NCBI GenBank assembly: GCA_024123915.1
Contig: CP099650.1
Coordinates: forward strand, 2,976,001 to 3,040,000
Length of the DNA stretch: 64,000 bases
Source of the DNA: Oxalobacteraceae bacterium OTU3CAMAD1
Lineage (GTDB): Bacteria; Pseudomonadota; Gammaproteobacteria; Burkholderiales; Burkholderiaceae_D
Reading direction: 5' to 3'
In this document: positions 9,210 to 31,028 of the stretch, one piece after another
Numbering within the stretch: position 1 is the first letter of the stretch
Layout of the letters: each line of letters starts with the position of its first letter
The notes under the pieces: model-generated
Seen by the model: only the letters and a program-made list of their open reading frames with translations
Database searches by the model: none
What the model was told of the DNA's origin: nothing
Program-made: the position numbers and the translations under genes

Positions 9210-11921
9210 ATGCCATATGAGCGCGGGAACCGGCCGGTTCCAAAGTGTATCGCCGTACGAATACTGGAGGCCTTTGGCCGCACGGCCACGGCCGGTTTGC
9301 TGGCCACGCTGGGCGTTCCGGCCGCCGCGCAAGATGCGCAACCAATGCCAAAAGTTGAAATAACCGGCTCTTCGATCAAGCGCCTCAATGCCGAAACCGC
9401 GTTGCCGGTGCAGTTAATTACCCGTGCCGACATCGAGAAAAGTGGGACCACCACGGCGGCTGAACTGCTGTCGAAGGTGTCCGCCAACGCGGCCGCGCTG
9501 ACCGATGGCGCCAGTTTCAGCGACATTGCCGGACAGCGTGGTTTCAACGGCGCCAACCTGCGCGGTATCGGCGTGTCGTCAACGCTCGTATTGCTTAACG
9601 GCCGGCGCCTGGCCAACTTTGCCTCGCCGGGCGGCAACGCCGGCGTCGACCTGAACGCGATTCCGTCGGCGGCGATCGACCGGGTCGAAGTGCTCAAGGA
9701 CGGCGCCTCGGCCATCTATGGGACGGATGCGATCGGCGGCGTGATCAACTTCATTACACGGCGCAATTACGAAGGCGCCGACGCCAGCGCCTACTATGCC
9801 GACACCCAGCACGGCGGCGCGCGCAAGGCGATGGCAACTTTGTCGGGCGGCATCGGTAATCTGGCGACCGATCGCTACAACGTGATGGGCGTGCTCGATT
9901 ACCAGGATACGGGCAGCCTGCGCTCGTCGCAGCGCAGCTGGATCGGTTCGGCCTACCAGCCCGATATCAATCTCGATTCGGGCAGTTCGAATACGTTTCC
10001 CGCGAACTTCCGCCGCACGCGCGCCAACGGCACCAGCGCGACCGGCCCCCGGATGAATCCAAGTGCGCCGGCCTGCAATCCGCCGGCAACCGTCTACGCG
10101 CCGGAGAGCTTCGTCGGCGCGGCTGCGTGCATGTACGATTACATGCAAGACACCGAGCTCTTCCCGGATTCGAAACGCGTGTCGCTGCTTGCGCGTGGCC
10201 AGTTCGCGCTCGACAAGGACACAACCCTGTACGGCGAATTGCTCCTCAACAAAACGTCGACCACCTACCGCATCAGCGCATTGACCATCTCCGGCGAGAT
10301 TTATCCCCTGGCAGGACAGTACTATCCACATGCGCTAGTGACAACCAATAAAACACCGCTCAACGTCAATATGCGCCTGAGCGAAGGCGGACCACGAACC
10401 AACGACATCGATGCCACTGCCACGCGCTTGGTGCTCGGCGGCAAGGGGATAGCGCTGGGCTGGGATTACGACATGGCGCTCAATCACAGTGTCAACAAGG
10501 TCGACGACCAGTATGTCGATGGGTACGTCCAGACGACGATGTTCGATAACGCTTTCGCGTCCGGCATCATCAATCCTTTCGGACCCTCCGGTCCTGAAGG
10601 GCGGGCCCTGCTGGCCGCCGCCAAGGTCAACGATCTGGCGCGCCACTCGCGCGGCACGACCGATTCGTTCGATGTCAAGGCCACGCGCGACCTGTTCGAG
10701 ATGGCTGGCGGCAGCGCTGCCGTTGCGATCGGCGTTGAGTACCGGCGCGAAAAAATGGCGTTTACGCCGTCTGCATTGCTGATGGCGGGGGAAATTCGCG
10801 GCGAAGGCACGGCCACGCCGTTTTCGGGCGGACGCAACGTCAAGGCCGCGTATGCCGAGTTCAACCTGCCTTTGCTGACCAGCCTGGAGGCCCAGTTGGC
10901 GTTGCGCCATGACCGCTACAACGACGTGGGCTCGACGACCAATCCGAAGGTCGGCGTGCGTTGGAATCCGATGAAGCAGTTGGTGGTGCGCGGCTCGTAT
11001 GGCACCGGCTTTCGCGCGCCGTCGCTTGCCGACCTGTACAGCCCTGTGCGGCTGGGCCAGGCCAACGGCATCTACAACGACCCGCTCGGCTGCATCAAGG
11101 TCGGGGCCATCGATAATACCGAAAATCCCGATTACTGCGGCCTGCAACCGGATAAGCTCAGGGGTGGCTCGCCGCAGCTGCGCCCGGAGGAGTCGAAGCA
11201 GTATTCGCTGGGCCTCGTGCTCGAACCGCGTCGCGACCTCACGGCAACACTGGACTATTGGCGCATCAAGAAAACAGATGTGATTGTCTCTCCGGAAGGG
11301 TCTTACTTCACCGATCCGGTGCGCAATGCCGCCTTCATCATCCGCGGCGAGCCCGACCCGGAACTGCCAGGTATACCTGGCCCGATCCTGTCGATCGATT
11401 CGCGGCTGCGCAATATCGGCGCGCTGGAAACCTCGGGCGTCGACCTGGGCTTCAACTGGCGCTCGCCGGCCACCGGCCTGGGCAGATTGGGTGTCACGCT
11501 CAACGGCACTTATGTGTTCGACTACAAAACGCGCGAGGCGGCCGACGGCCCCGATCTCAGCGCGCTGGGCGTGTACACCAACGACCAGGTAATCCAGCGG
11601 TGGCGTCATACGGTGAGCCTGGACTACGACCGTGGCCCGCTCAGCATGACACTGCAGCAAACCTTCCTGAGCGGCTATCGTGACCAAAACTTGCTGGCCG
11701 ATGGGTCGGTCCATCGCGTCGACTCCTATTCCTTGCTCGACCTGACCGGCGCGTACCAAATTTCGACGGCGCTGAGGCTACGGGCCGGTATCAAGAACCT
11801 GCTCGACAAGAATCCGCCGCGCTCGAACCAGTTGTTCAGTTTTTCTGTCGGTTACGATCCCAGTTATACCGATCCGCGCGGGCGTCAGTTCTTCACTGCG
11901 CTGGCTTACTCGTTCAAATAG
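9210..11921 (+). CDS. TonB-dependent outer-membrane receptor
   Basis: A 903 aa outer-membrane receptor with a signal region (to about VPAAAQ), then the TonB-contacting segment and plug domain: KVEITGSSIKR, RGIGVSSTLVLLNGRR and VEVLKDGASAIYGTDAIGG, followed by a 22-strand-type barrel ending in FFTALAYSFK with the usual terminal aromatic. The plug style matches receptors for large polymers or peptides (long NADLYSP/GFRAPSLADLY barrel signature) rather than catecholate siderophores. A strong Shine-Dalgarno GGGAGGGAA precedes the ATG. Its position after the exported S51 peptidase suggests that it imports the peptidase products; this is inferred from context. Confidence 0.92.
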   Translation: MPYERGNRPVPKCIAVRILEAFGRTATAGLLATLGVPAAAQDAQPMPKVEITGSSIKRLNAETALPVQLITRADIEKSGTTTAAELLSKVSANAAALTDGASFSDIAGQRGFNGANLRGIGVSSTLVLLNGRRLANFASPGGNAGVDLNAIPSAAIDRVEVLKDGASAIYGTDAIGGVINFITRRNYEGADASAYYADTQHGGARKAMATLSGGIGNLATDRYNVMGVLDYQDTGSLRSSQRSWIGSAYQPDINLDSGSSNTFPANFRRTRANGTSATGPRMNPSAPACNPPATVYAPESFVGAAACMYDYMQDTELFPDSKRVSLLARGQFALDKDTTLYGELLLNKTSTTYRISALTISGEIYPLAGQYYPHALVTTNKTPLNVNMRLSEGGPRTNDIDATATRLVLGGKGIALGWDYDMALNHSVNKVDDQYVDGYVQTTMFDNAFASGIINPFGPSGPEGRALLAAAKVNDLARHSRGTTDSFDVKATRDLFEMAGGSAAVAIGVEYRREKMAFTPSALLMAGEIRGEGTATPFSGGRNVKAAYAEFNLPLLTSLEAQLALRHDRYNDVGSTTNPKVGVRWNPMKQLVVRGSYGTGFRAPSLADLYSPVRLGQANGIYNDPLGCIKVGAIDNTENPDYCGLQPDKLRGGSPQLRPEESKQYSLGLVLEPRRDLTATLDYWRIKKTDVIVSPEGSYFTDPVRNAAFIIRGEPDPELPGIPGPILSIDSRLRNIGALETSGVDLGFNWRSPATGLGRLGVTLNGTYVFDYKTREAADGPDLSALGVYTNDQVIQRWRHTVSLDYDRGPLSMTLQQTFLSGYRDQNLLADGSVHRVDSYSLLDLTGAYQISTALRLRAGIKNLLDKNPPRSNQLFSFSVGYDPSYTDPRGRQFFTALAYSFK

Positions 11922-15790: not shown

Positions 15791-16036
15791 ATGTCCAGTA
15801 GCCACACTTTTCGTCCCGATCTGGTGTCGTCGGAAATCGTCAAAACCGGCATCGAACTGGCGGATCGGGAAGGGCCGGACAGCGCCGCCGCCTACCTGAG
15901 CGAGCGCGGAGTGCTGGAGCCGGTGATCAACAGGGTCATCGCCGAGCCGGCGCATCGCCGCAACATGGGCCGGCTGCGCGGCAAGGATGAGAGCTTGCTG
16001 GCGGAAGAGGCCTCGCGGTACAAGTTTATCCGTTGA
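15791..16036 (+). CDS. small hypothetical protein, 81 aa
   Basis: An 81 aa soluble, charged protein with no signal peptide or membrane helix. It is supported as a gene by a strong Shine-Dalgarno (GAAGGAGAT, 7 bp before ATG 15791) and by codon usage like its neighbours. It begins MSSSHTFRPDLV and ends RYKFIR; the middle is predicted helical (IVKTGIELADREGPDSAAAY, then RVIAEPAHRR). I do not recognise a family. It is flanked by a TetR gene and the operator region of the gluconate locus, without an obvious link to either. Confidence 0.65.
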   Translation: MSSSHTFRPDLVSSEIVKTGIELADREGPDSAAAYLSERGVLEPVINRVIAEPAHRRNMGRLRGKDESLLAEEASRYKFIR

Positions 16037-16206: not shown

Positions 16207-16223
16207 TGATAACGCTAACTTGA
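16207..16223 (+). promoter_or_regulatory. LacI-type operator, upstream copy
   Basis: TGATAACGCTAACTTGA has the central CG and partial dyad typical of LacI/GntR-family operators. A second, nearly identical site lies 99 bp downstream. A 300-bp gene-free stretch (16037-16336) holds both sites. The repressor is not encoded in the window. Confidence 0.5.
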
Positions 16224-16305
16224 TGTTGGCCGACATCCCCGGATAAATTCCCAATTCAGACAAGAGTCCGCGCCCCGATCTAGGGCGCATAACTCAGAAC
16301 TGAAA

Positions 16306-16322
16306 TGATAGCGCTAACTTCA
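16306..16322 (+). promoter_or_regulatory. LacI-type operator, gluconokinase-proximal copy
   Basis: TGATAGCGCTAACTTCA matches the upstream site in 15 of 17 positions, with the more perfect core TAGCGCTA. It ends 14 bp before the gluconokinase ATG and would overlap the transcription start or ribosome-binding region, as expected for a repressor operator; the paired site would allow looping. Confidence 0.55.
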
Positions 16323-16336
16323 ACTTGGAGAGATGG

Positions 16337-16891
16337 ATGGAAAGTTCCGGCAGCCCGCAGGACAGCGCGATACGCTGGGTCGTCATGGGCGTGAGCGGCT
16401 GCGGCAAGAGCACGATCGGCCAGGCGCTGGCGACGGCCCAAGGCGTCCCGTTCGTCGAGGGCGACCAGTTCCATCCGGCGGCCAACGTCGCGAAGATGTC
16501 GGCCGGACAGCCGCTGACCGACGACGACCGCGCCGATTGGCTGCTGGCGCTGCAGGCGAAGGTGGGCGAGGCGCGTCTGGCCGGCGTCGGCCTGGTGCTG
16601 TCCTGCTCGTCGCTGAAGCGTCGCTATCGCGACCTGCTGCGGGCGGCCGATCCGGCGCTGCGTTTCGCCCATCTGAGCGGCGCGCGCGAACTGATCGCCG
16701 ACCGCATGCAGGCGCGCGTCGGGCATTACATGCCGTCGTCGCTGCTGGACAGCCAATTCAAGGATCTGCAACCGCTACAGGCCGACGAGGCCGGAATCAC
16801 CTTGGCCATCACGGCGCCGCCGGCGCAACTGGTCGCACAGATACTGGCCAGCGAAGGCAGGGCCGCGTCCAGGGGCGACGGATTGGAGTAA
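16337..16891 (+). CDS. gntK: gluconokinase
   Basis: Cytoplasmic enzyme phosphorylating D-gluconate to 6-phosphogluconate, feeding the Entner-Doudoroff or pentose phosphate route. The 184 aa length is typical of the GntK/IdnK family. The P-loop GVSGCGKST lies near residues 22-30, followed by the substrate-site EGDQFHPAANVAKM and the second signature SCSSLKRRYRDLLR. ATG 16337 is preferred because GGAGAG precedes it; TTG 16325 is in frame. It leads a five-gene set with a receptor, a gluconate permease, a secreted beta-helix enzyme and an esterase, downstream of two LacI-like operators. Confidence 0.93.
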   Translation: MESSGSPQDSAIRWVVMGVSGCGKSTIGQALATAQGVPFVEGDQFHPAANVAKMSAGQPLTDDDRADWLLALQAKVGEARLAGVGLVLSCSSLKRRYRDLLRAADPALRFAHLSGARELIADRMQARVGHYMPSSLLDSQFKDLQPLQADEAGITLAITAPPAQLVAQILASEGRAASRGDGLE

Positions 16892-16993
16892 CGGAATACG
16901 GGGGAAGCAAAACGCAGCAAAAGGCAGCAAAACGCAGCGGACCGTCAGCAGTACCGCGCGCAAACAACTACAGACCAAGAACCGGAGACTAAA

Positions 16994-19900
16994 ATGACTA
17001 CACCTACACGTAACACCATCATGCGCCTGGCCGTCGCCAGCGCTTGCAGCTGGATCGCCTTATCAGCCCAGGCCCAAGCCCAGGTCCAGGCGCAAGCCCA
17101 GACCGAGGCTCAAGCTCAAACCCAAACCCCGCCGGCCGGCGCCGACGCGCAGGTCGCCACAGCGCAGGACACCGCTCCGGCGGCGGCCCAAGCCCAAGCC
17201 CCTGCCGCGCCGGAAGCGGCGGCGCCGGTGGAGAATGTGGTTACCGTGTCCGGTTCGCGCATCGCCGCGCGCGGCTTCACGCAGCCGACACCGACCACCA
17301 CCTTGAGCGCCGACGACCTGGCCAAGGGCGCGCAGCCGAATATCTTCAACAGCATCGCCGAACTGCCAGCGCTGCAAGGCAGCACCGGCCGCACCACCAG
17401 CACCAACAGCACCAGCAGCGGTGTCCAGGGTTTAAGCTCGCTGAGTTTGCGCGGCCTGGGCGCGATCCGCACGCTGACACTGCTGGACGGCCAGCGCGTG
17501 GTCGGCGCCAACGTCACCGGCGTGACGGACGTCAGCCAGTTCCCGCAACTGCTGATCAAGCGCGTGGACGTGGTGACCGGCGGCGCCTCGGCGTCGTATG
17601 GCTCGGACGCCATCGGCGGCGTCGTCAACTTCATCACCGACAAGCGCTTCCAGGGTTTCAAGGCCAATGTGCAGGGCGGCATGACCACCTACCACGACGA
17701 CAAGAACGGCACCTTGCAGGCCGCGTGGGGCAAGTCCTTCATGGACGACCGCCTGCACGTGCAGGTCAGCGGCGAATACGGCCGCCAGAAGGGCATCGAG
17801 TCGCCGGGCTTCGGCGAGGTTGGTCCGAACGGCCGCACGTGGTATCAGAATCCGGCCTTCCAGGTCCGTCCGCTGTCGCAGACCAACGACGGCAAGCCGC
17901 AGTACTATTCGGTGCTGCACGCGCAGCAGTACCAGTACGCCAAGTATGGCCTGATCACCAACGGCCCGCTGCAGGGCACCGCCTTCGGCGCGAACGGCCA
18001 GCCTTACCAGTTCAACTACGGTTCCAACGGCGTGCCGACCGGCACCGGGGCGGTGACCGGCTGTATCAATCCGCTGTGCGTCGGCGGTGACTTGAGCGGC
18101 AGCGTCGGCGCCGGCACCAACCTGGCGATGGACCTGACGCGCCAGGTGGCCTATACGCGCGTCGGCTTCGACATCAACCCGGATCATGAGATCTACATGA
18201 CGGCCAATTTCGGCAAGGTGAAGTCGGCCTTCTCGCCGAATCCCGGCGCCGCCAAAAACGCCAACCTGACTATCCAGTGCAGCAATCCCTACCTGCCGGC
18301 GTCGATCGCCGCCGCTTGCGCTGCCAATAACATCACCAGCTTCCAGTACGGAACGGCCAACGCCATCTTCCCGGAAAATATCAACGTCCACCCGACGCGC
18401 CAGATGGAGCGCGTGGTCGTCGGCGGCACCGGCAAGTTCCAGTTGATGGGCAAGGAATGGTCGTATGACGCCTACGCCGAACATGGCGCCAACAAGACCG
18501 ACATCATCGTCAACGACATGACGCTGAACGCCCGCTACAACGCCGCCATCGACGCCGTGCGCGGGCCTGACGGCACTATCGTCTGCCGCAATCCAATCGC
18601 CGCCGCATCCGGCTGCAAGCCGCTCAACATCATCGGCAACAACCCGGTCGACGCGGCCACCTGGAATTACATCGCGCCGGAAAACGGTCCGCGCCAGCAC
18701 ACCCGCCAGACCCAGGATGTCGCCAGCGTCAACTTCAGCGGCGAGGCGTTCGAGTCGTGGGCAGGTCCGATCGCCGTGGCCACCGGCGCCGAATACCGCC
18801 GCGAACACTATAAGGTCACCGGCGACCCGTACGGCAACGGCATCTTCCCGGACAGCCAGAACACCGCCCAATATCCAGCCGACCCGCTGCTGAACACCAC
18901 CGTCGGTAACAACTGGTACGCCGGTAACTACCACAACGCCCAAGGCACATACAATGTCAAGGAAGCGTATGTGGAGTTCAACGTGCCGGTGCTGAAGTCC
19001 GCCACCTGGGGTGAAGCCAACCTCAATCTGGCCGACCGCCACACCAAATACAGCACCTCGGGCCATGTGGAAAGCTGGAAGCTGGGCGCCAACTGGAAGA
19101 CCGGCATCGACGGCCTGCGCCTGCGCGCGGTGACATCTAAAGACGTGCGCGCACCGAATCTGAGCGAGCTGTATGCGGCGCAGGTGGTGGTCAACAACGT
19201 GGTCGCGTACCAGGGCAACACGATCGCGATCCAGCAGCGCACCGTGGGGAACACCCGTCTGCGTCCGGAGATCGCCCGCAACAACACCGCCGGTATCGTG
19301 TTGACGCAGCCATCGTGGGCGCCGGGCTTCAGCGCCTCCATCGATTACTTCGACATCAAGGTCGAAGGCGTGATCTCGGCGCTGACCGCGCAGCAGGAGG
19401 TCGATCTGTGCGTGGCCGGTAATCAGGAGATCTGCGGCGCGATGGTGCTCAACAGCCCTGTGGCGACCAATAACTACGTGACGGTGCAGGCGTTCAACCT
19501 GGCGTCGCTGCGCGTGAAGGGCTATGACCTGGAAGGCGCCTACCGCATGAATCTGAAGGGACTGGGCATCCCGGGCCGCCTCACCTTGCGTGCGCTGGTC
19601 ACCCGTAACATCAGCTTCCTGACCGACCCAGGCGTCGTCGGCACGATTCCTTCGGAAGGCGCGGGCGCCAACCTGGGCGCGACGCCCAAGTGGAAGGGCT
19701 TGGCCTCGCAGTCGTGGGATACCGACAAGTACAGCCTGACCCTGACCGAGCGTTGGATCAGCAAAGGCGTATACAGCAACGAGTACATCGAGTGCCAGAC
19801 CAATTGCCCAGTCTCGACGACGATCCACCCGACCATCTTCGACAACAAGATGAAGGGCGCGTTCTACGTCGATCTGGGTGGCACGTACAAGCTGGGTGAC

Positions 19901-20047
19901 AAAACCACCGCCTACTTCAAGATCGATAATATCGGCAACGTCGATCCGGCGCCAGCTCCCCAGGCCAACCTTAGCTACGGTATCAACCCGCAGCTGTACG
20001 ATGTGCTGGGCCGCGTCTACCGCGTCGGCGTTCGCTACAACTTCTAA
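16994..20047 (+). CDS. TonB-dependent receptor of the gluconate/polymer locus
   Basis: A 1017 aa outer-membrane receptor. After the signal sequence the mature N-terminus is an unusual Gln/Ala/Pro-rich linker (about residues 25-75). The plug follows: NVVTVSGSRIAARGF, SLRGLGAIRTLTLLDGQR and VDVVTGGASASYGSDAIGG, then a large barrel ending VYRVGVRYNF. The plug/barrel style is that of carbohydrate or polymer receptors in Xanthomonadales and Caulobacter-like loci, not of siderophore receptors. It lies 102 bp after gntK and 21 bp before the permease, so co-transcription is likely. The ligand may be an oligosaccharide released by the secreted enzyme encoded downstream. Confidence 0.92.
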   Translation: MTTPTRNTIMRLAVASACSWIALSAQAQAQVQAQAQTEAQAQTQTPPAGADAQVATAQDTAPAAAQAQAPAAPEAAAPVENVVTVSGSRIAARGFTQPTPTTTLSADDLAKGAQPNIFNSIAELPALQGSTGRTTSTNSTSSGVQGLSSLSLRGLGAIRTLTLLDGQRVVGANVTGVTDVSQFPQLLIKRVDVVTGGASASYGSDAIGGVVNFITDKRFQGFKANVQGGMTTYHDDKNGTLQAAWGKSFMDDRLHVQVSGEYGRQKGIESPGFGEVGPNGRTWYQNPAFQVRPLSQTNDGKPQYYSVLHAQQYQYAKYGLITNGPLQGTAFGANGQPYQFNYGSNGVPTGTGAVTGCINPLCVGGDLSGSVGAGTNLAMDLTRQVAYTRVGFDINPDHEIYMTANFGKVKSAFSPNPGAAKNANLTIQCSNPYLPASIAAACAANNITSFQYGTANAIFPENINVHPTRQMERVVVGGTGKFQLMGKEWSYDAYAEHGANKTDIIVNDMTLNARYNAAIDAVRGPDGTIVCRNPIAAASGCKPLNIIGNNPVDAATWNYIAPENGPRQHTRQTQDVASVNFSGEAFESWAGPIAVATGAEYRREHYKVTGDPYGNGIFPDSQNTAQYPADPLLNTTVGNNWYAGNYHNAQGTYNVKEAYVEFNVPVLKSATWGEANLNLADRHTKYSTSGHVESWKLGANWKTGIDGLRLRAVTSKDVRAPNLSELYAAQVVVNNVVAYQGNTIAIQQRTVGNTRLRPEIARNNTAGIVLTQPSWAPGFSASIDYFDIKVEGVISALTAQQEVDLCVAGNQEICGAMVLNSPVATNNYVTVQAFNLASLRVKGYDLEGAYRMNLKGLGIPGRLTLRALVTRNISFLTDPGVVGTIPSEGAGANLGATPKWKGLASQSWDTDKYSLTLTERWISKGVYSNEYIECQTNCPVSTTIHPTIFDNKMKGAFYVDLGGTYKLGDKTTAYFKIDNIGNVDPAPAPQANLSYGINPQLYDVLGRVYRVGVRYNF
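17066..17128 (+). repeat. imperfect hexamer repeat encoding Gln-Ala dipeptides
   Basis: About ten imperfect tandem copies of a GCCCAR-like hexamer encode alternating Ala and Gln just after the signal peptide of the TonB receptor. Because the unit is two codons, gain or loss of copies changes linker length without shifting the frame. Confidence 0.7.
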
Positions 20048-20068
20048 CCTCAACCCGAGGGCGCCGTC

Positions 20069-21433
20069 ATGAACATTACCAGTCCGTTGGCGGCGCTGTT
20101 CGGCGTCACGCCAGCCGTCTGGGGCATGCTGGCCGTCGGCTTGTCCGTCGGCCTGCTGACCCTTTTGATCGCCTGGGGCAAAGTGCAGCCGCTGCTGGCG
20201 TTCGTGGTGGCCGCGCTGGCGGCGGCGCTGTTGCTCGGCATGCCGCTGGATACCATCCCCAAATCGATCGACAAGGGGATCGGCGACCTGCTTGGATCGC
20301 TGATCGTCATTGTCTGCCTGGGCGCGGTGTTCGGTAAGCTGATCGCCGACAGCGGCGCCGCCCAGCGCATCGCCAGTTACCTGATAAGCGTATTCGGTTC
20401 GGCGCGCATGCCGGTAGCGCTGACACTGACCGGCTTCGTCGCCGGGATTCCCCTTTATTACAACGTCGGTTTCGTGCTGCTGGTGCCGCTGGTTTTCTCG
20501 CTGGTGTATCAGAGCGGTCGGCCTGCGGTGGCGCTGGCGATACCGCTGCTGGCCGGGCTGTCGATCGCGCATGGCTTCCTGCCGCCGCATCCATCGCCGA
20601 CCGCGCTGGTGGCGCAGTTCCATGCCGATATGGGCCGCACCTTGTTCTACGGGATGATCGTCGCCATACCGACGCTAATCATCGCCGGTCCGATCTTTGC
20701 GATGACCTTAAAGCGCATTCACAGCGAGCCGGCGCCGATGTTCCGCGCCGGGTTGCTGGAGGAGGCGCAGCTGCCTGGTGTCTTCAACAGCTTCGCCACG
20801 GCGCTGCTGCCGGTCTGGCTGCTGGCCGCCGCCACCGCGCTGACCATGGTGCCAACCGAGGACGCGGCGCTGAAGTCGGTCATCAACTTCATGGCCAACC
20901 CGATGATCGTGATGCTGATCGCGCTGGCCGTGGCGCTGGTGACGCTTGGTCTGGCGCGCGGTAAAAGTCTGCCGGCGCTGATGGCCGGCGCGCAGGACGC
21001 TTTGCGCGACATCGCGCCCATTCTGTTGGTGATCGCAGGGGCGGGCGCGCTGAAGCAGGTGCTGGTCGATTCCGGCGTGAGCGGGGAGTTGGGCAGGCAG
21101 CTGGGCGGCCTGCCGGTGCCGCCGCTGGTATTGGGCTGGCTGGTGGCCACCCTGATACGTATCTGCCTTGGCTCGGCCACGGTGGCGGGACTGACGGCTG
21201 CCGGCATCGTCGCGCCGCTGGTGGAAAGTTCGGGCATCGATCCGAGCTTGATGGTGCTGGCGATCGGCGCCGGCAGTTTGATGTGCAGCCACGTGAACGA
21301 TTCCGGATTCTGGATGTTCAAGGAATACTTCGGCCTGTCGCTGAAGGACACCTTCCGCTCGTGGACGTTGATGGAGACGCTGGTTGGCGTCTTCGGGCTG
21401 ATTTTCGTGTTGCTCCTATCGATCTTTATCTAA
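20069..21433 (+). CDS. gntP: gluconate:H+ symporter, GntP family
   Basis: A 454 aa inner-membrane permease with about twelve to fourteen hydrophobic segments, matching the GntP/GntT family in length and layout. Visible signatures include GMPLDTIPKSIDKGIGDLLGS near residue 55, the loop HGFLPPHPSPTALV near residue 170 and the C-terminal GSLMCSHVNDSGFWMFKEYF, a strong family hallmark. It is translated 21 bp after the TonB receptor and is followed 11 bp later by the secreted enzyme, so it should bring gluconate (or a close aldonate) into the cell for gntK. Confidence 0.93.
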   Translation: MNITSPLAALFGVTPAVWGMLAVGLSVGLLTLLIAWGKVQPLLAFVVAALAAALLLGMPLDTIPKSIDKGIGDLLGSLIVIVCLGAVFGKLIADSGAAQRIASYLISVFGSARMPVALTLTGFVAGIPLYYNVGFVLLVPLVFSLVYQSGRPAVALAIPLLAGLSIAHGFLPPHPSPTALVAQFHADMGRTLFYGMIVAIPTLIIAGPIFAMTLKRIHSEPAPMFRAGLLEEAQLPGVFNSFATALLPVWLLAAATALTMVPTEDAALKSVINFMANPMIVMLIALAVALVTLGLARGKSLPALMAGAQDALRDIAPILLVIAGAGALKQVLVDSGVSGELGRQLGGLPVPPLVLGWLVATLIRICLGSATVAGLTAAGIVAPLVESSGIDPSLMVLAIGAGSLMCSHVNDSGFWMFKEYFGLSLKDTFRSWTLMETLVGVFGLIFVLLLSIFI

Positions 21434-21444
21434 GGACTAAGCAA

Positions 21445-24400
21445 ATGAAATTATCTTTAACGCGGTTGCTGATGGCGACCGTGGCGATGCTGGCCGTCCC
21501 GATGAGTGGTGCGCAGGCCGCATCTAAAGCTGGACCTCCGGCGTCGGTTTCCGTCTATCAGACCATGCCGGACGACGCGTTGGCCGTCAAAGTCCAGGCC
21601 ACCGGCGACGGGCGCACCGACGACACGGCGGCGATCCAGAAGGCCGTCGACAGCGCCGCCAACAAGGGCGAGGGCGGCGTGGTGTTCCTGCCGTCGGGCC
21701 GCTACCGCATTACGCGCACCATCCTGATCCCGCTGGCGGTGCGCCTGTATGGCGTCGGCGCCACACGGCCGGTGCTGGTGCTGGGCGAGCGCACGCCCGG
21801 ATTCCAAAAAGGCGTCGCCAACATGGTGGTGTTCACCGGCGGCGACCAATACACGGTCGGCAAGGTGCCGGTTCCCGTGGTGAGCGCGGTGCCGTTCAGC
21901 GAGACCGTGCGCGACGCGAATTCGTCGACCTTCTATTCGGCGATGAGCAATGTCGATTTTGAAATCGGCGACGGCAACCCGGCGGCGGCCGCCGTACGCT
22001 TGCGCACCGCGCAGCATTCGAACCTGAGCCACATCGACTTCCACATTGGCTCGGGACTGGCCGGCATCTACCAGGTCGGCAACGAGGGCTTCAACCTGAA
22101 GTTCTACGGTGGGCGCTACGGCATCCTGTCGGAGAAGACTTCGCCGGCCTGGCAGTTCACGCTGATGGATTCGACCTTCGAGGGCCAGCGCGACGCGGCC
22201 ATCCGCGAACACGAAGCCGGCCTGACGATGATCAACGTCTCCATCCGCAATACCAAGGTGGGCATCGAGATCGATCGCGGCTACGGCGATTGGTTGTGGG
22301 GTAAGGATGTGCGCTTCGAGAACGTGTCCAGGGCCGCGATCATCATTTCGAACGAGGACAACGTCTACACCCAGGTCGGTTTCGACAATGCGGTCGCGCG
22401 CAATACGCCGGTATTCGCGCAGTTCCGCGACAGCGGCAAGAAGATCGCCGCGCCCGGCCCGATTTACCGCGTGGGTGAATTCAACTACGGCTTGATGCTG
22501 CCGGGCGTGGGCAGCACCGGCAAGTTCGGCACCAATTCCAGGATCGCGCCGTTGAGCGCCATGCCGGCCGCGCCCAAGCGCGTGCTGCGCGCGCTGCCGC
22601 CGACCACGCAATGGGCCAACGCCCGCGCCCTCGGCGCCAAGGGCGACGGCCAGACCGACGATACGGCGGCCATCCAGAAGGCCATCGACAACAACCGCGT
22701 GGTGTACCTGCCGCTGGGCTTTTACATCGTCAACGATACGATCCGCATGAAGCCGGACACCGTGATCGTGGCGCTGCATCCGGGCCTGACGCAACTGGTT
22801 CTGCCGAACGGCTCGCCGCTGTACGCCGGCGTGGACGGACCGAAGGCGCTGCTGGAAAGCGCCAAGGGCGGCGACGCCATCGTCTCCGGCTTCGGCCTGG
22901 CGACCGGCGAAGTCAATCCGCGCGCGGTCGGCCTGCTGTGGAAAGCCGGCGAGCAGTCGCTGGTCGACGACATCCGCATCCAGGGCGGCCACGGGACGCG
23001 TCTTTATGATGGCGTGCGCCGCGATCCGTATCAAAAGCGCGCAGACTTCGATCCGACCGCGCACTGGGACCGCCAGTATCCGAGCATCTGGGTGACCGAC
23101 GGCGGTGGCGGCACCTTCGTCGCGGTCTGGTCGCCGAGCACCTTCTCGCAGGCCGGCTTCTACGTCTCCGACACCAAGACGCCGGGCCGCGTCTACGAGC
23201 TCTCCGCCGAGCACCATGTGCGCGCCGAGATCGTCCTCGATAACGTGGAAAACTGGGAGTTCCTGGCGCCGCAAACGGAGCAGGAGGTACGCGACGGCAT
23301 GGACGCGGTGTCGCTGGAGATCCGCAATTCGCGCAACATCCTGTTCGCGAACTATCACGCCTATCGCGTCACCCGTTCGATCAAGCCGGCGCCGGCCGCC
23401 GTGAAGATGACCAATTCGAGCGATATCCGCTTCCGCAATGTGCACGTCAACGGCGAGAGCGGCTACGCCACCTGCGACGCCAATGGCTGCGACACCTATC
23501 TGCGCGCCAGTAAATTCCCGTTCGAGAACGCGTTGCTGGACGTTACGCACAAGCTGGAAGTGCGCGAACGCGAATTCGCGATGCTGGACATCGTCGCCAA
23601 CCCGGTGGCGCCGCCGGCCAACCCGGTCAAAGTGGAGAAGCTGGAAGAGGGCTTTTATTCGATCGCCGGTGGCGTGGTCGATGCCAAGGGCAAGCTGTAT
23701 TTCGTGGACCGCCGCTTCCAGCGCATCTACAGCTGGTCGAAGGACAAGGGCTTGGTGGTGGTGCGCGACGCGCCGCTCGATCCGATCAATCTGGCCATCG
23801 ACAACAGCGGGGCGTTGATGGTGCTGTCCTCGCATGGCTTCGAGGGCACGGTGTATTCCTTCCATCCGGACCGACCGGCCGGCGAGGTCACGGTGATCAA
23901 GCCGACCCCGGTGAAGGCGCATGCCGGCGCCAAGACCGTGGTGCCGGTAAATTTCTGGCAGAACGGCGAATTCCGCGACCAGCTCAATCCCGAGACGTAC
24001 GAGTTCACCACCTTGGCAGAGATGTTCGCGCGCGACGTCGCGCTGCCGAAAAAACGCGAGTATGTGTCGCCGGACGGCACGCTGGTGCTGCCGGCTTACC
24101 GCATGTTCCAGCAGGGGCAGCCGAACCATCTGGGCTGGCGCTTCTCGGATTCCCTCGATACCCATGGCCTGGTGTCGGCCGGCCGCAATGGCCGCGTGGT
24201 GTTCACCAACGGCTCCGAGAACCGCACCTTCAGTGGCGTGATCGGCACTGGTGGCGGCATCACCGATCTTAAACTGGCGGCCAATCGCGGCGGCGAGAGC
24301 GCCGCCGTGGACGCGGCGGGCAATGTGTATGTGGCCAACGGCCAGATCTTCGTCTATGCGCCCTACGGCAAGGAGATCGGCCGCATCGACGTGCCTGAGC

Positions 24401-24498
24401 GCCCGCTGCAATTGATTTTCGGCGGCGAGGGCGGACGCACGCTGTTCATCCTGACCCACCGCGCGCTGTACGCGACCGGAGGCTTGAATGGCGCTTAA
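21445..24498 (+). CDS. secreted beta-helix polysaccharide enzyme fused to SMP-30/gluconolactonase-like propeller
   Basis: A 1017 aa exported protein (signal peptide to about AQAASKA). Two tandem right-handed beta-helix modules each open with a pectate-lyase-3/GH55-type motif: GDGRTDDTAAIQKAVD near residue 55 and GDGQTDDTAAIQKAID near residue 397, as in GH55 enzymes. From about residue 730 the sequence changes to an SMP-30/gluconolactonase-like propeller: DAKGKLYFVDRRFQRIYSW, LAIDNSGALMVLSS, AAVDAAGNVYVANG and a final FGGEGGRTLFILTHRALY. ATG 21445 follows AAGGA. Inferred role: cleave a polymer and open an aldonolactone so that gluconate is released next to its permease and kinase. Neither activity can be proved by reading; catalytic residues of the helix part were not assigned. 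Confidence 0.75.
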   Translation: MKLSLTRLLMATVAMLAVPMSGAQAASKAGPPASVSVYQTMPDDALAVKVQATGDGRTDDTAAIQKAVDSAANKGEGGVVFLPSGRYRITRTILIPLAVRLYGVGATRPVLVLGERTPGFQKGVANMVVFTGGDQYTVGKVPVPVVSAVPFSETVRDANSSTFYSAMSNVDFEIGDGNPAAAAVRLRTAQHSNLSHIDFHIGSGLAGIYQVGNEGFNLKFYGGRYGILSEKTSPAWQFTLMDSTFEGQRDAAIREHEAGLTMINVSIRNTKVGIEIDRGYGDWLWGKDVRFENVSRAAIIISNEDNVYTQVGFDNAVARNTPVFAQFRDSGKKIAAPGPIYRVGEFNYGLMLPGVGSTGKFGTNSRIAPLSAMPAAPKRVLRALPPTTQWANARALGAKGDGQTDDTAAIQKAIDNNRVVYLPLGFYIVNDTIRMKPDTVIVALHPGLTQLVLPNGSPLYAGVDGPKALLESAKGGDAIVSGFGLATGEVNPRAVGLLWKAGEQSLVDDIRIQGGHGTRLYDGVRRDPYQKRADFDPTAHWDRQYPSIWVTDGGGGTFVAVWSPSTFSQAGFYVSDTKTPGRVYELSAEHHVRAEIVLDNVENWEFLAPQTEQEVRDGMDAVSLEIRNSRNILFANYHAYRVTRSIKPAPAAVKMTNSSDIRFRNVHVNGESGYATCDANGCDTYLRASKFPFENALLDVTHKLEVREREFAMLDIVANPVAPPANPVKVEKLEEGFYSIAGGVVDAKGKLYFVDRRFQRIYSWSKDKGLVVVRDAPLDPINLAIDNSGALMVLSSHGFEGTVYSFHPDRPAGEVTVIKPTPVKAHAGAKTVVPVNFWQNGEFRDQLNPETYEFTTLAEMFARDVALPKKREYVSPDGTLVLPAYRMFQQGQPNHLGWRFSDSLDTHGLVSAGRNGRVVFTNGSENRTFSGVIGTGGGITDLKLAANRGGESAAVDAAGNVYVANGQIFVYAPYGKEIGRIDVPERPLQLIFGGEGGRTLFILTHRALYATGGLNGA

Positions 24499-25390
24499 AC
24501 GTGTAGGCCGTGCGGTATTGGCGCTGCTGGTGGCTGTCTGCGCGCAGGCCGGCGCGCAGCAAACGCATATGCTTTGGCCGGACGGCGCGCCTGGATCGGA
24601 AAAGCGCCATGGCGAGCCGGAGACGGTGCAGAACACCTACGTCAGCAACATCCACGATCCGTCGCTGACGGTGGTAAAGGCCGACGCGCGCCACGCCAAC
24701 GGCGCGGCCGTCATCATCGCGCCCGGCGGCGGGCATCGCATGCTGGTGTGGATGAACGAAGGCATGGTGGCGGCGAAGTCGCTGAACCGCGTGGGCGTGA
24801 CGGCCTTCGTGCTGAAGTACCGGCTGGCGCGCGACCAGGGCTCCAGCTACAGCATCGAGAACGACGCCGCCGCCGATCTGCGGCGCGCGGTGCGGTGGGT
24901 GAGGGCGCACGCGGCGGAATTCGGCGTCGATCCGAACCGGCTTGGCGTGATGGGATTCTCGGCCGGCGGGGAGCTGGTGTCGCTGGTGGCCGACAATCCG
25001 GCTCCGCCGGTGTCGGCGGGCGCCAAACAGGATGCGGTCGACAAGCAAAGCGGGCGGCCCGACTTCCAGGTGCTGGTGTATCCGGGGCCGCTGGGCGTGC
25101 CGGCGAAGGCGGTGCAAAACGCGCCGCCGGCCTTCATCGTCGCCGGATCGGCAGACAAGTGCTGCGGCCCGCCGGCGGTGGCGCTGTATCAGCAACTGGT
25201 GGCGGCGGGCGTTTCAGCGGAGCTGCATATGTATGCGGACACGGACCACGCGTTCAACATGGGGCAGCGTTCGGAGAGGCTGTCGGATGTGCATTGGCCG
25301 GATCGCCTGTCCGACTGGCTGTCCGACAGCGGCTGGCTGGTCCCGCATGGAGGCAAGGCGCCGCAAGGGGTGCCATCGCCTACTCAATGA
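24488..25390 (+). CDS. exported alpha/beta hydrolase (acetylxylan-esterase-like)
   Basis: A 300 aa esterase with a signal peptide (to about AQAGAQ) and an alpha/beta-hydrolase fold: the oxyanion segment AAVIIAPGGGHRML, the nucleophile elbow GFSAGGEL (Ser near residue 158) and the catalytic His in ADTDHAFNMG. The opening MLWPDGAPGSE is typical of secreted carbohydrate esterases of the BD-FAE/acetylxylan type. Its start overlaps the end of the large beta-helix enzyme by 11 bases, so it is coupled to it and probably removes acyl groups from the same substrate. No terminator is evident in the 131 bp to the convergent J-like gene. Confidence 0.85.
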   Translation: MALKRVGRAVLALLVAVCAQAGAQQTHMLWPDGAPGSEKRHGEPETVQNTYVSNIHDPSLTVVKADARHANGAAVIIAPGGGHRMLVWMNEGMVAAKSLNRVGVTAFVLKYRLARDQGSSYSIENDAAADLRRAVRWVRAHAAEFGVDPNRLGVMGFSAGGELVSLVADNPAPPVSAGAKQDAVDKQSGRPDFQVLVYPGPLGVPAKAVQNAPPAFIVAGSADKCCGPPAVALYQQLVAAGVSAELHMYADTDHAFNMGQRSERLSDVHWPDRLSDWLSDSGWLVPHGGKAPQGVPSPTQ

Positions 25391-26764: not shown

Positions 26765-26857
26765 GATGTTAAATAAATAGTATCGGGTTTCACAATGGTG
26801 GCAGCGATTCGGGCGCTCTACCGTGTATTACCGCACTTATGGCTGCAAATCGGGCGC

Positions 26858-26886
26858 TTGACCAAACAGAAAGATTTCCTGATAAT
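26858..26886 (+). promoter_or_regulatory. promoter of the siderophore receptor operon
   Basis: TTGACC (26858-26863), a 17-bp spacer and GATAAT (26881-26886) make a good sigma-70 promoter. The -10 box is also the first hexamer of the Fur box. The transcript would have a leader of about 140 nt before the GTG start at 27035. Confidence 0.6.
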
Positions 26887-26899
26887 GGTAATCATTCTT
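26881..26899 (+). promoter_or_regulatory. Fur box
   Basis: GATAATGGTAATCATTCTT agrees with the 19-bp Fur consensus GATAATGATAATCATTATC at 16 positions. It overlaps the -10 element, the classical position for iron-dependent repression. It is the only clear Fur box I found in the window. Confidence 0.8.
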
Positions 26900-27034
26900 A
26901 TTTGCAAGCCACGCGCGTTTCCCGGCGCTAGCCAGCACACCATCTGCCCACCGATCGCCGGCGATTTCCTCGGATTTCTTCTTGACCCATGTTGGTCGGT
27001 ACGGGTGGTTCCATGTACCGGAGAGCCAAGCCCT

Positions 27035-29185
27035 GTGAAATCCCTGAATCCCACGTTGTATCCGCGCGCGCGCTTGCCGGGCGCCATCATCGCCGTGGTC
27101 GCCGCCTTGTCGGCGCCGCACACCTCCGCCCAAGTCGCCGCGAAGGCGGTTGACGACGCCGCCGTGCCGGCGGTGCTGGTGTCGGCTTCGCGCTCCAATA
27201 TCGCCACCAACCAGGCGCCGCAAACGGTGGTCATCATCAAGCAGGAGGAGATCGAGCGCCAGATGGCGATATCGGGCAATTCCTCCGATGTGTTGAGCAG
27301 CGTGCTGCCTTCCTATACGCCGAGTCGCGGCAAGATGAACGGCTCCGGCGAGACGCTGCGCGGCCGCACGCCGCTGTTGCTGGTCGACGGCGTGCCGCAA
27401 TCGAACCCGATGCGGCCGACCGGCCGCGAGGCGCACACGATCGACTTTTCGATGGTGGAGAGGATCGAGGTGGTGCAGGGCGCGAACGCGATCAATGGAC
27501 TGGGCGCGACCGGCGGTACCATCAACATCATCACCAAGCGCCCGGAGAAGGGCGCGTTCAACCAGTCGATCGACGTGCAGACCACACTGCCGACCAGCGA
27601 TGTGGGCTCGGAGACGGCCAGCTACAAGACCGCCTATCGCCTCGATGGCCGCAACGACAAGTTCGAATACCTGTTCGCCCTGTCCTACGAGGACCAGGGC
27701 CTGTACCTGGACGGCAAGGGCCGTTCGATCGGCACCGACAACACGCAGGGCGATCTGATGGACTCGCGCACCTACGATGTGCTGGCGAAGCTGGGCTACT
27801 GGATCGACGACGACCAGCGCCTGCAGGTTTCGGTCAACCGCTACAAGATCAAATCCAAGGCCGGCTACCTGGCCGTGGCGGGGGACCGCGTGCGCGGCAT
27901 TCCCACCACCTCCATCGAGGGCACGCCGCCCGGCACGGCGCCGTGGAACGACGTGTGGACCTCGAGCCTGAGCTACCGCCACGCCAACCTGGCGGGCATG
28001 GAGCTGTCGGCGATGGTGTTCAACCAGGAGTTCGAGGGCCTGTTCGGCGCGGATATCTCGGCGACCTTCCAGGACCCGCTGATCGCGCCAACCGGCACGC
28101 TGTACGATCAATCGCGCTCGGTCGCCTCCAAGTACGGCAGCAAAGTGGGGCTGAGCCGCGACGATCTGCTCAACGGCCGCCTGAAGCTGACCGTCGGTTT
28201 CGACACGCTGTTCGACAAGGGCAAGCAGGACCTGTATCTGACCAGCCGCACCTACGTGCCGCAATCCGAATACCGCAACCTGTCCTTGTTCCTGCAGGGT
28301 GAATACAAACTGCTCGATACGCTGACGATGCACGCCGGCGTGCGCAAGGAGAAGGCCGATCTGGAGATCGACACTTATCGCACGCTGGCGCAGTACCGGC
28401 GCGTGCTGGTCCAGGGCGGCACCATCGATTTCAACGAGACGCTGATGAACGCGGGTCTGGTGTGGAATCCGGTCAAGGACGTGTCGCTGTTCACCAGCTA
28501 CTCGGAGGGCTTCGGCATGCCGGATATCGGCCGCGTGCTCCGCTCGATTAACACCGTCGGCCAAAGCGTGGCCAACATGCGCGACCTGCAGCCGATCCTC
28601 ACCAAGAGCGTGGAAGTGGGCGGACGCTATCACAGCGGCGCCTGGGATCTGGATGCAAGCCTGTTCCGCTCCGATTCCGATTTCGGCACGCGCGTGGTGC
28701 CGATCAACGGCGCCTTCATGATGGCGCGCGAGAAGACGCGCATCGAGGGCGTGGACCTGAGCCTGGGCCACCGCTTCACCAAGGCGCAACGCGCCAAGCT
28801 GTCCTACGCCTACACCAAGGGTCGTTACGACAGCGACGAAAACGGTACGCTCGACGCCAAGCTGGATGGCCTGAACGTGGCGCCGAATCGCCTGATCGCC
28901 ACCTGGAGCGCGGACTGGAACGGCAAGTTCTCGACCTTCGTGCAGGCGCAGCACGCGTTCAGCCAGTCGTTCGACGATCCGGCCAAGGAGTTCGGCGGCT
29001 ACACGCTGGTCGATGCGAGCGCCAACTACAAGCTCGGGAAAAATGGCGAACTGCGCATGTCGATGGCCAACCTGTTCGACCGGAGTTACATCACGTACTA
29101 CTCGCAAAGCGCGCTGGTGGAGCCGAGGCGCTACTTCGCGGGTCGCGGACGCACCGTGAGCCTCGGCTACGCGCTGCGATTCTGA
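27035..29185 (+). CDS. TonB-dependent siderophore receptor
   Basis: A 716 aa iron-siderophore receptor. GTG 27035 is chosen: it follows CGGAGAG and begins a signal peptide ending near PHTSAQ, while the in-frame reading back to 26795 is not signal-like and crosses the Fur-box promoter. The plug shows VLVSASRSNIATNQAPQTV, LRGRTPLLLVDGVPQSN and IEVVQGANAINGLGATGGTI, the siderophore-receptor style; the barrel ends RTVSLGYALRF. It heads a four-gene operon (receptor, DUF3649, PepSY, DUF3325) under a Fur box, a conserved arrangement for hydroxamate or catecholate uptake. The exact siderophore is not readable. Confidence 0.92.
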   Translation: MKSLNPTLYPRARLPGAIIAVVAALSAPHTSAQVAAKAVDDAAVPAVLVSASRSNIATNQAPQTVVIIKQEEIERQMAISGNSSDVLSSVLPSYTPSRGKMNGSGETLRGRTPLLLVDGVPQSNPMRPTGREAHTIDFSMVERIEVVQGANAINGLGATGGTINIITKRPEKGAFNQSIDVQTTLPTSDVGSETASYKTAYRLDGRNDKFEYLFALSYEDQGLYLDGKGRSIGTDNTQGDLMDSRTYDVLAKLGYWIDDDQRLQVSVNRYKIKSKAGYLAVAGDRVRGIPTTSIEGTPPGTAPWNDVWTSSLSYRHANLAGMELSAMVFNQEFEGLFGADISATFQDPLIAPTGTLYDQSRSVASKYGSKVGLSRDDLLNGRLKLTVGFDTLFDKGKQDLYLTSRTYVPQSEYRNLSLFLQGEYKLLDTLTMHAGVRKEKADLEIDTYRTLAQYRRVLVQGGTIDFNETLMNAGLVWNPVKDVSLFTSYSEGFGMPDIGRVLRSINTVGQSVANMRDLQPILTKSVEVGGRYHSGAWDLDASLFRSDSDFGTRVVPINGAFMMAREKTRIEGVDLSLGHRFTKAQRAKLSYAYTKGRYDSDENGTLDAKLDGLNVAPNRLIATWSADWNGKFSTFVQAQHAFSQSFDDPAKEFGGYTLVDASANYKLGKNGELRMSMANLFDRSYITYYSQSALVEPRRYFAGRGRTVSLGYALRF

Positions 29186-29186
29186 T

Positions 29187-29483
29187 ATGTCCGACCAGCG
29201 TCCCGGCCTTATGCCGCGCGCCGCCGTCACAGCGCTGCGTGTGCTGGGCGCGGTCGGCGGTGGCTATGCGTTGACGGCGTTAACGGTGGCCGTCGGCGCG
29301 GTGGCGCTGTCCCGCGCAGGCATGGCGCGCTCGGAGGCTGTGGCGCTGGCGGCGATGCTCGGGTTTGTGCTGTATCTGGCGTTGCTGCTGTGGGGCTTCA
29401 GCGTGCGTCATGTGGGCCGCCTGTGGCTGGCCTTTTGCTGCGGCGCGGCCGTCATGTGGGCGCTATGGCGCTTGCTGGCCTGA
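29187..29483 (+). CDS. DUF3649 iron-uptake-associated membrane protein
   Basis: A 98 aa inner-membrane protein with three hydrophobic segments (ALRVLGAVGGGYALTALTVA, AVALAAMLGFVLYLALLLW and LWLAFCCGAAVMWALWRLL). Length, topology and gene order match DUF3649 proteins, which are found almost always between a siderophore receptor and a PepSY protein. It starts one base after the receptor stop codon. The molecular role is not established; it may help the PepSY reductase assemble. Confidence 0.85.
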   Translation: MSDQRPGLMPRAAVTALRVLGAVGGGYALTALTVAVGAVALSRAGMARSEAVALAAMLGFVLYLALLLWGFSVRHVGRLWLAFCCGAAVMWALWRLLA

Positions 29484-29492
29484 GGGGCGGGG

Positions 29493-31028
29493 ATGGGCGA
29501 TACCTTCACCAAATCGATGGCGGCGCTGCACACGTGGGCAGGCGTGACGATCGGCGCGCTGTTGTTCGCCATCTTCTGGATGGGGACATTGAGCGTCTTC
29601 AGTAACGAGATCGATCGCTGGATGCTGCCCGATACGCGCCTCGAGGTCCGGGAGGCGACGACGGCGCCTTCGCTGGACCGCATCGCGCAAGCGGTGCTGC
29701 CCAGCGTGCCGGCCGGCGCGCGGCAGTGGCGCGTCGATCTGCCCACCGCGCGCGCGCCGGTGATGGAGTTCTCCTATCGCGGCGCCGACGGAGTGGAACA
29801 TGCCCGTCTGCTCGACCCGTCCAGCTACGCCTTTCTGCCGCCGCAGGGATCTGCCGGCGCCACTGGCTTTATCGTGCCGTTCCATTATCACCTGCATCTG
29901 AACTGGATGGAAATCGGCAAGTGGCTGGTCGGCGTGGCTGCGATGACGATGCTGGTGATGCTGGTGTCAGGCGTGATCGTCCACAAGAAAATCATCGCCC
30001 AGTTTTTCACCTTCCGTCCGCGCAAGCGCTGGCAGCGCAGTGCCCTGGACCTGCACAATCTGACCGGGGTGCTGGCGTTGCCGTTCCATTTCGCGATCGC
30101 CCTGTCGGGCCTTGTCATCTTCATGACGATCTATTTTCCGCAATCGTATTACGGCGCCTATGGCAGTACCGCGAAGGACAAGGCGGCGTTCACGGCGGAG
30201 GCCTACGGGCGCTACACCCGCAAACCGGCGAAGGCGCCAGGGACCCTGGCGTCGCTGGACGCCATGCGCGAACGCGCGGAGCGGGAGTGGCGGGGCGGCC
30301 AGCCGTATTTTGTGCGGGTGTGGAATCCGGGCGACGCCAACAGCTACGTCGAATTGCGCCGCTCTTATGCGCACGACATGACGATGAACCTCGACCAGAT
30401 CTATTTCGACGCCACCACCGGCGAAGTGCTCGCGCGCTTCGAGGCCGGACCGGTGATGACGGTGCAGCGCTTTTTCTCGGGTTTGCACTTCGTCCGCTTC
30501 GAGCGTTGGACGTTGCGCTGGCTGTACTTTTTTGGCGGCATATCCGGTTGTGTGATGATAGCCACCGGTTTTTTATTCTGGCTGGAAGGGCGGCGTGCCC
30601 GTCATGCGAAGCATGGACTGGCCGGGGTGGCGATCGTGGAAGGCCTGACCATCGGCAGCGTGACCGGTATTTTGCTGGCGACCTTGGCCTTTTTTGTCGC
30701 CAATCGTTTGCTGCCGGCGGACGCAGGCTACGCGGGAGTGGATCGCGCGGGGATGGAAATCCGCGTGTTCTATGTGGTGTGGGTACTGGCGTTTTGTCAC
30801 GCCTGGTGGCGGCGGGCTTGCGCGTGGCGCGAGCAGTTGTGGGCCATCGCCGGGTTAGCTGTGCTGGCGGTGGGCTCGAATTGGGCCACGACTGGCGAGC
30901 ATGTGCTCAAGGCATTGGCGCAAAGCCAGTTTGCCGTCGCCGGCATGGACTTGGGATTGATGGGTACCGCTTTGCTGGCGCTGATGGCGGTCAGGAGGCT
31001 AAAGGTCGGGAGGATACAAGGTGCTTGA
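29493..31028 (+). CDS. PepSY-associated TM protein (ferric-siderophore reductase-like)
   Basis: A 511 aa inner-membrane protein of the PepSY_TM family, relatives of which (FoxB, PiuB, FhuF-like reductases) reduce or process ferric siderophores in the periplasm. The first membrane helix (LHTWAGVTIGALLFAIFWMG) carries the family HTWAG signature, followed by a periplasmic PepSY domain, FHYHLHLNWM, further helices with LHNLTGVLALPFHFAIALSG, and a C-terminal helical group. The several intramembrane His residues suit haem or metal coordination. It starts 9 bp after DUF3649 and overlaps the DUF3325 gene by 8 bp. Confidence 0.88.
   Translation: MGDTFTKSMAALHTWAGVTIGALLFAIFWMGTLSVFSNEIDRWMLPDTRLEVREATTAPSLDRIAQAVLPSVPAGARQWRVDLPTARAPVMEFSYRGADGVEHARLLDPSSYAFLPPQGSAGATGFIVPFHYHLHLNWMEIGKWLVGVAAMTMLVMLVSGVIVHKKIIAQFFTFRPRKRWQRSALDLHNLTGVLALPFHFAIALSGLVIFMTIYFPQSYYGAYGSTAKDKAAFTAEAYGRYTRKPAKAPGTLASLDAMRERAEREWRGGQPYFVRVWNPGDANSYVELRRSYAHDMTMNLDQIYFDATTGEVLARFEAGPVMTVQRFFSGLHFVRFERWTLRWLYFFGGISGCVMIATGFLFWLEGRRARHAKHGLAGVAIVEGLTIGSVTGILLATLAFFVANRLLPADAGYAGVDRAGMEIRVFYVVWVLAFCHAWWRRACAWREQLWAIAGLAVLAVGSNWATTGEHVLKALAQSQFAVAGMDLGLMGTALLALMAVRRLKVGRIQGA

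Follow-up and report, generated by a model that had tools for sequence, protein, structure and literature searches.

What role does an operon play that places a TonB-dependent outer-membrane receptor, a glycan enzyme built from two folds and an esterase beside a gluconate symporter and a gluconokinase? We addressed this question for one such locus in Oxalobacteraceae bacterium OTU3CAMAD1, within a stretch of 64,000 nucleotides (the window) from a single-contig genome of 7.48 Mb. We read the locus, with a probability of roughly 60%, as a TonB-dependent glycan-utilisation operon in which use of a polymer, presumed to be a glucan, feeds gluconate by way of periplasmic oxidation.

Five genes run in one direction on the + strand (16337-25390) below two LacI-type sites, also on the + strand: operator 1 (TGATAACGCTAACTT, 16207..16221), which is kept 5' of gntK in relatives, and operator 2 (TGATAGCGCTAACTT, 16306..16320), 16 bases ahead of the gntK start. 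The genes encode the gluconokinase GntK (16337..16891; TIGR01313, 193.7 bits, cut-off 113.75), a TonB-dependent outer-membrane receptor (16994..20047; Plug, PF07715, 57.6 bits), the gluconate:H+ symporter GntP (20069..21433; TIGR00791, 478 bits, cut-off 292.75; PF02447, 474 bits), a 1017-residue fusion of a GH55-like and an SMP-30-like part (21445..24498) and an alpha/beta-hydrolase esterase (24488..25390; PF07859, Abhydrolase_3, and PF20434, BD-FAE). A preliminary description had linked these five genes below two LacI-type operators, and all the parts were found in place, the gluconate import and phosphorylation proteins scoring above curated cut-offs. Signal peptides were recognized by eye in the fusion and the esterase, and the structural model of the fusion has a pLDDT of 85.8. 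The longest mechanical open reading frame of the fusion starts at a GTG 54 codons earlier, and the receptor is, by coincidence, also 1017 residues long. The fusion and esterase genes overlap, the latter starting before the former ends, and the top NCBIfam match of the esterase was the pectin acetylesterase PaeX, with 118 bits under a cut-off of 550. The receptor is present and no SusD match was found among the window proteins scanned, so the SusC/SusD pair of Bacteroidota polysaccharide utilization loci was not encountered. Between 15700 and 26900, terminator-like sites did not exceed chance (8 found, 10.0 expected) and promoter-like sites were little above it (5 found, 2.3 expected).

Several features flank the operon. 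An open reading frame of 80 aa upstream (15794-16036) has no Pfam match; its family lies near the fusion in 9/87 of the loci compared below, upstream in some and 3' of the esterase in others. The next + strand genes (26795-31028) encode a siderophore-type TonB receptor and then a PepSY_TM protein, probably a separate neighbouring iron uptake unit. The region 7850-11921 encodes a Peptidase_S51 match (30.8 bits), which we take to be cyanophycinase-like, and then another TonB-dependent receptor.

We compared the neighbourhood of the fusion in 87 loci, namely the window, 79 loci kept from the best 80 of 142 related stretches in a collection scan, and 7 from further relatives; 43 are of the Oxalobacteraceae type and 44 are alphaproteobacterial, all are mutually related, some share one genome and contig ends truncate some of them. 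Neighbours within 9 kb of the fusion were counted with a codon-usage gene caller and BLAST linkage, by which short genes can be missed, and Pfam identities of the neighbour families were taken from representatives. The receptor family was found in 79/87 loci, GntK in 63/87 (33/43 beta-, 30/44 alphaproteobacterial), GntP in 60/87 (41/43 and 19/44), the esterase family in 43/87, ThuA in 19/87 and LacI in 11/87 (2 beta, 9 alpha), while an FCD/GntR regulator occurred in 33/87, all of them alphaproteobacterial (33/44). The possibility raised earlier, that homologues would never have gluconate genes as neighbours, was thus not what we saw. Most Oxalobacteraceae loci are arranged as gntK-receptor-gntP-fusion-esterase(-ThuA). 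The clusters of Caulobacter, Sphingomonas, Sphingobium and Novosphingobium consist of a regulator, gntK in divergent orientation, the fusion and the receptor, frequently with another fusion copy. The cluster is therefore kept in two classes, the beta- and alphaproteobacteria, despite different gene orders.

Further copies were also observed. Six loci (L082, L085-L089) hold a paralogous set, with no adjoining gntK, of a receptor, gntP and a fusion, the fusion being 67-69% identical to that of the window; the operator is absent in four of the six, and five come from strains also holding the main cluster. Among the alphaproteobacteria, L090, L091, L093-L096, L099, L100 and others have two fusion copies per cluster, either in tandem or flanking the receptor.

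The two LacI-type operators proposed in the preliminary description were borne out in the genome and in relatives. Matches to a loose LacI-type pattern, with at most one mismatch, were only slightly more numerous in the window than expected (9 against 3.86). Genome-wide, the 15-mer TGATARCGCTAACTT matches exactly at only three positions and at six when one mismatch is allowed, the reversed pattern at none. Two of the exact sites are those in the window (16207 and 16306); the third, at 6803990, is an exact copy of operator 2 and lies 5' of a ThuA gene. With up to two mismatches allowed, the 15-mer stood 5' of a cluster gene in 38/43 Oxalobacteraceae loci (33/43 5' of GntK) and in 4/44 alphaproteobacterial loci, and the reversed control pattern in 0/87 (0/43 Oxalobacteraceae). 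The five Oxalobacteraceae loci without the site are L054 and the paralogous sets L085-L088. Of the genomes of the genus, 17 have a ThuA orthologue (E < 1e-100), and 15 of these 17 also bear the fusion. All 13 stand-alone orthologues have the site at -43 to -59 with 0-2 mismatches, and 11 of these genomes bear the fusion; the site was found 5' of ThuA in 0/4 in-cluster copies and 0/7 more divergent copies. The one-mismatch sites at 45176 and 5589391 were rejected as regulon members, having no neighbour with a visible sugar link. The remaining one-mismatch copy, TGATAGCGCTCACTT (L144, about genome position 1975942), lies upstream of tonB, exbB and exbD genes, whose products could energise the receptor.

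A candidate regulator lies elsewhere in the window's genome (G000). The LacI protein encoded at 3531229 is 75% identical to the LacI of L073, whose gene is divergent from gntK; the next best is 37% identical. It is adjoined by a second gntK, 68% identical to that of the window, and a single self-complementary palindrome, TGTTAGCGCTAACA, lies between the two genes, just 5' of gntK. This LacI is likely the repressor of the operon, with gluconate or its phosphate as the putative inducer.

What does the fusion act on? The domain search called for on the 1017-residue protein returned PF12708 twice (132 bits) and, at the C-terminus, PF08450 (45.9 bits). Scoring of 8000 candidates gave 5469 matches, of which 120 homologues were listed; 120/120 of these carry both domains, so a chance or rare join was rejected. 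Database names for such proteins include 'gluconolaconase' and, for some, 'glycosyl hydrolase family 28-related' (NCBI).

The N-terminal part (residues 38-717, 21556..23595, + strand) folds as two right-handed beta-helix domains that form one catalytic unit, as in GH55, and in a structure comparison only GH55 entries aligned over more than 400 residues with rmsd < 4 among the 50 matches listed. We mapped the GH55 residues by eye on printed alignments. In GH55 numbering, the general acid is Glu502 in SacteLam55A and Glu614 in MnLam55A, and the relay Glu/His are 480 and 481 (PMC10637969); the equivalents E612, E589 and H590 are present in 120/120 listed copies. The subsite -1 residues Trp446 and Asp449 correspond, as in GH55, to W549 (Trp in 114/120 listed copies) and D552 (Asp in 95/120). 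For the water-activating relay, Q237 (Gln in 90/120 listed copies) fits Gln174 and T261 (Thr in 119/120) fits Ser198, both by eye, with no residue fitting Thr149. The adjusting Tyr505 is replaced by V615, with Tyr in 0/120 listed copies, and the aromatic-block Trp444 by S547 (Ser in 118/120) or a gap. Compared with the exo/endo-beta-1,3-glucanases PcLam55A (3eqn), CtLam55 (5m5z), MnLam55A (8jhh) and SacteLam55A (4pew), the protein thus shares the twin beta-helix, the general acid, the relay Glu and His and the Trp446 and Asp449 equivalents, but it is only about 20% identical, lacks the adjusting Tyr and one aromatic-block Trp, and is fused to a propeller. The GH55-like double beta-helix of the preliminary description therefore holds for fold and catalytic acid, but not for these two aromatic residues. 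Because they are missing, the substrate may not be beta-1,3-glucan; we call this part GH55-like rather than filing it as GH55, and hydrolysis of beta-1,3-glucan is at most a prediction.

The partial loss of the GH55 subsite -1 leaves room for a reading in which the helix acts on another polymer (pectic, acetylated or an exopolysaccharide), being either a lyase or a GH55-like enzyme whose specificity has changed, and the gluconate genes accompany it because regulation is shared. The family 28-related label on some homologues and the sub-threshold pectin acetylesterase match of the esterase agree with it. We consider it unlikely, since the long, close structural matches among those listed were to GH55 alone, and the general acid and the relay Glu and His are invariant among the listed copies.

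The C-terminal part (residues 722-1017, 23608..24498, + strand) is a six-bladed propeller with a significant profile match to PF08450, and is homologous over its full length to gluconolactonase-type proteins. It shares both the fold and the match with members of the SMP-30/gluconolactonase family (XC5397 3dr2, CcXylC 7plb, 3e5z), and differs from them at the metal site. The metal ligands of CcXylC are Glu18, Asn146 and Asp196 (PMC9795676); in the window this Glu-Asn-Asp triad has become A741, H907 and E951. The metal Glu was found in 0/120 listed copies, which have Ala, Gly or Ser instead (59/36/25). The Asn146 position holds Tyr in 56, His in 46, Asn in 17 and Phe in 1, and the Asp196 position Glu in 120/120. 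The conserved Asn101 beside the metal aligns to position 839, one residue off the invariant N840, and N840, N922, E951, N965 and H1005 form a polar set present in 120/120 listed copies. The gluconolactonase-like propeller described earlier is correct as to the SMP-30 fold, the C-terminal part not falling outside the family. Since the triad is not conserved, a lactone-opening role for the propeller is only a proposal and the database label 'gluconolaconase' is in doubt. The presence of the fused propeller hints that the enzyme may handle lactone-ended oligosaccharides.

A reading in which the propeller is nevertheless a working gluconolactonase, so that the fusion both cuts a polymer and delactonises its aldonolactone units or ends, draws on this full-length homology, on the invariant polar set, which could form a modified site, and on the Asp-to-Glu change, which retains a carboxylate. 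The oxidoreductase introduced below would then be incidental. Against this, the Glu ligand is replaced in every listed copy, and Tyr, His or Phe takes the place of the Asn ligand in 103/120; we regard this reading as possible but rather doubtful. Our preferred reading, a glucan locus that feeds gluconate after periplasmic oxidation, requires an oxidant.

That oxidation step is probably carried out by a periplasmic aldose-aldose oxidoreductase (AAOR). A Gfo/Idh/MocA protein lies inside seven alphaproteobacterial clusters (L092, L098, L101, L103, L120, L124 and L127), and four loci found later bring AAOR in the cluster to 11 alphaproteobacterial loci. An eighth member of that BLAST family, from L075, looks different and was dropped. 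In six loci (L092, L098, L101, L103, L120 and L127), a small cupin adjoins AAOR. The L124 protein scored 489.6 bits with CcAAOR (5a02), 344.5 bits with GFOR and 113.5 with the next family; the linked protein thus matches CcAAOR and Zymomonas GFOR far above other family members. By eye, a putative Tat-type signal can be made out (GRRDLLVAAA in L098, L101, L103 and L120; DRRSLVLAAGG in the AAOR of G000). The protein differs from those two enzymes in its association here with a glycan locus. The G000 AAOR gene (1595533-1596606) matches the L124 protein with 421 bits and 55% identity. CcAAOR forms gluconate and sorbitol from glucose and fructose, more than 100-fold more weakly than GFOR, and both an oxidised and a reduced product from xylose; the main text of its description makes no mention of oligosaccharide substrates, and its authors call the physiological role unclear (PMC4628093). 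We infer that AAOR acts on oligosaccharides as well.

The fusion and AAOR co-occur. Among 36 genomes of the genus, including G000, we scored the fusion when full or nearly full length and AAOR at E < 1e-120. Each was present in 16 genomes: both in 15, the fusion alone in one (G025), AAOR alone in one (G021) and neither in 19 (Fisher 4.4e-8). On a dnaG tree there were three supported independent comparisons; over 200 pairings a mean of 2.6 went the same way and 0.0 contrary, two of the 200 including one contrary comparison, and the median p was 0.25. Relatedness therefore explains part of the co-occurrence in the genus. A sample of 149 genomes from the family of G065, a Sphingomonas chosen for having the fusion, gave both in 9, the fusion alone in one, AAOR alone in six (two of these at only about 50% identity) and neither in 133 (Fisher 6e-10, kinship ignored). 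In G223, too, the fusion occurs and AAOR does not. Each of the 24 alphaproteobacterial genomes with the fusion that we tried (accounting for 24 of the 44 loci) matched AAOR at E <= 1e-60, the match in G061 being weaker (45%). Two genomes are natural partial losses: G021 keeps AAOR and an operator-bearing ThuA with no fusion, and G025, which retains the fusion, lacks AAOR, ThuA and any labelled gntP in its cluster.

Location varies between lineages. In four of nine genomes viewed, AAOR, GntP, GntK, the receptor and two fusions lie in one stretch of 13.7-15.4 kb; in three, AAOR is 0.1-2.3 kb from GntP in a stretch without the fusion; in one (G071) it is about 27 kb from the fusion on the same contig, and in one it stands alone. 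The receptor of L233, one of the first four, is only 26% like that of the window. In Duganella the AAOR gene is unlinked to the cluster: among 16 regions of 11-20 kb surrounding AAOR genes of the genus, GntP was labelled in none and GntK in two, in both cases the cluster's own gene. A site, TGGTAGCGCTATCA, lies at about -38 of 8/16 AAOR genes of the genus; it is absent from the other eight, those of G000, G015, G018 and five others. Since AAOR is unlinked in Duganella and G000, G015 and G018 lack the site, its membership there rests on co-occurrence.

This unlinked position, together with GntK and GntP being the tightest metabolic neighbours, would suit a substrate that already holds gluconate or another aldonate, as a conjugate or an aldonic-acid-ended oligosaccharide, from which the fusion frees gluconate directly while AAOR serves a parallel free-sugar route. 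The 11 alphaproteobacterial clusters containing AAOR and its co-occurrence with the fusion in two families make this improbable. The strong co-occurrence also speaks against the working lactonase, as does the count for LPMO_10, a possible maker of lactone ends, which was present in 0/16 fusion-bearing genomes of the genus; it is present in 3/20 others, and we rejected this source. Likewise rejected was a membrane PQQ glucose dehydrogenase, for which a TIGR03074 search of this genome found none.

With AAOR as the oxidant, we propose the following path. The receptor would bind a poly- or oligosaccharide and import it, the substrate probably being a beta-1,3-linked glucan or something akin to one, and the exported esterase would strip its acyl groups. 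The GH55-like half, whose fold and residues were found as described, may then cut glycosidic bonds with E612 as general acid. The AAOR, putatively of the Tat type and encoded elsewhere in the genome, would convert glucose or the reducing end of an oligosaccharide to an aldonolactone, a reaction modelled on CcAAOR for an enzyme placed here by co-occurrence and co-location. The lactone may open by itself, through the action of a separate SMP-30 lactonase, or with assistance from the fused propeller, whose metal site is non-canonical. By family assignment, GntP would import the gluconate and GntK would then phosphorylate it. The path of the preliminary description (deacylate, cut, open, import, phosphorylate) is thus supported in part: lactone opening is not backed by the metal site, and the oxidation step was missing from it.

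We also offer a tentative and rather speculative elaboration, in which oligosaccharides are imported and their reducing ends turned into lactones by AAOR in the periplasm, the simultaneous reduction of another aldose keeping the redox balance neutral, and the fusion works the aldono-oligosaccharides from both ends, the propeller holding or opening the lactone end at its changed site (N840, N922, E951, N965 and H1005) and the GH55-like half trimming the chain to gluconate. If true, this would explain why two folds form one chain and would give CcAAOR-type enzymes a physiological role. If the glucan reading in general is right, two proteobacterial classes share a conserved form of glucan use in which the sugar is oxidised in the periplasm and taken up as an acid, and both the role of CcAAOR, called unclear by its discoverers (PMC4628093), and the function of a widespread fusion become directly testable. 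Bacteria of soil and of freshwater carry the cluster.

Databases contain many copies of the fusion, which is apparently uncharacterised; the window's copy is 93% identical (best segment) to the enzyme of Duganella sp. 1411 (L057), which makes Duganella the probable host genus. No paper describing the locus was found in the open-licence PMC literature, from which subscription journals are largely absent, and this is weak evidence of novelty. The parts are of known kinds, and it is their combination that we did not meet in that literature. Gluconate operons with gntK and gntP stand under LacI-type or FCD/GntR-type regulators. The present locus shares the kinase and the symporter, with the sites and a LacI gene in betaproteobacteria and an FCD/GntR gene in the cluster at 33 of the 44 alphaproteobacterial loci, but here a receptor, a glycan enzyme and an esterase belong to the unit too. 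The closer kin are the TonB-dependent carbohydrate utilisation loci of Proteobacteria, which gather a receptor, exported enzymes, an inner-membrane transporter and a regulator in one unit; the make-up here is the same, except that the terminal transporter takes an oxidised sugar acid and not a sugar.
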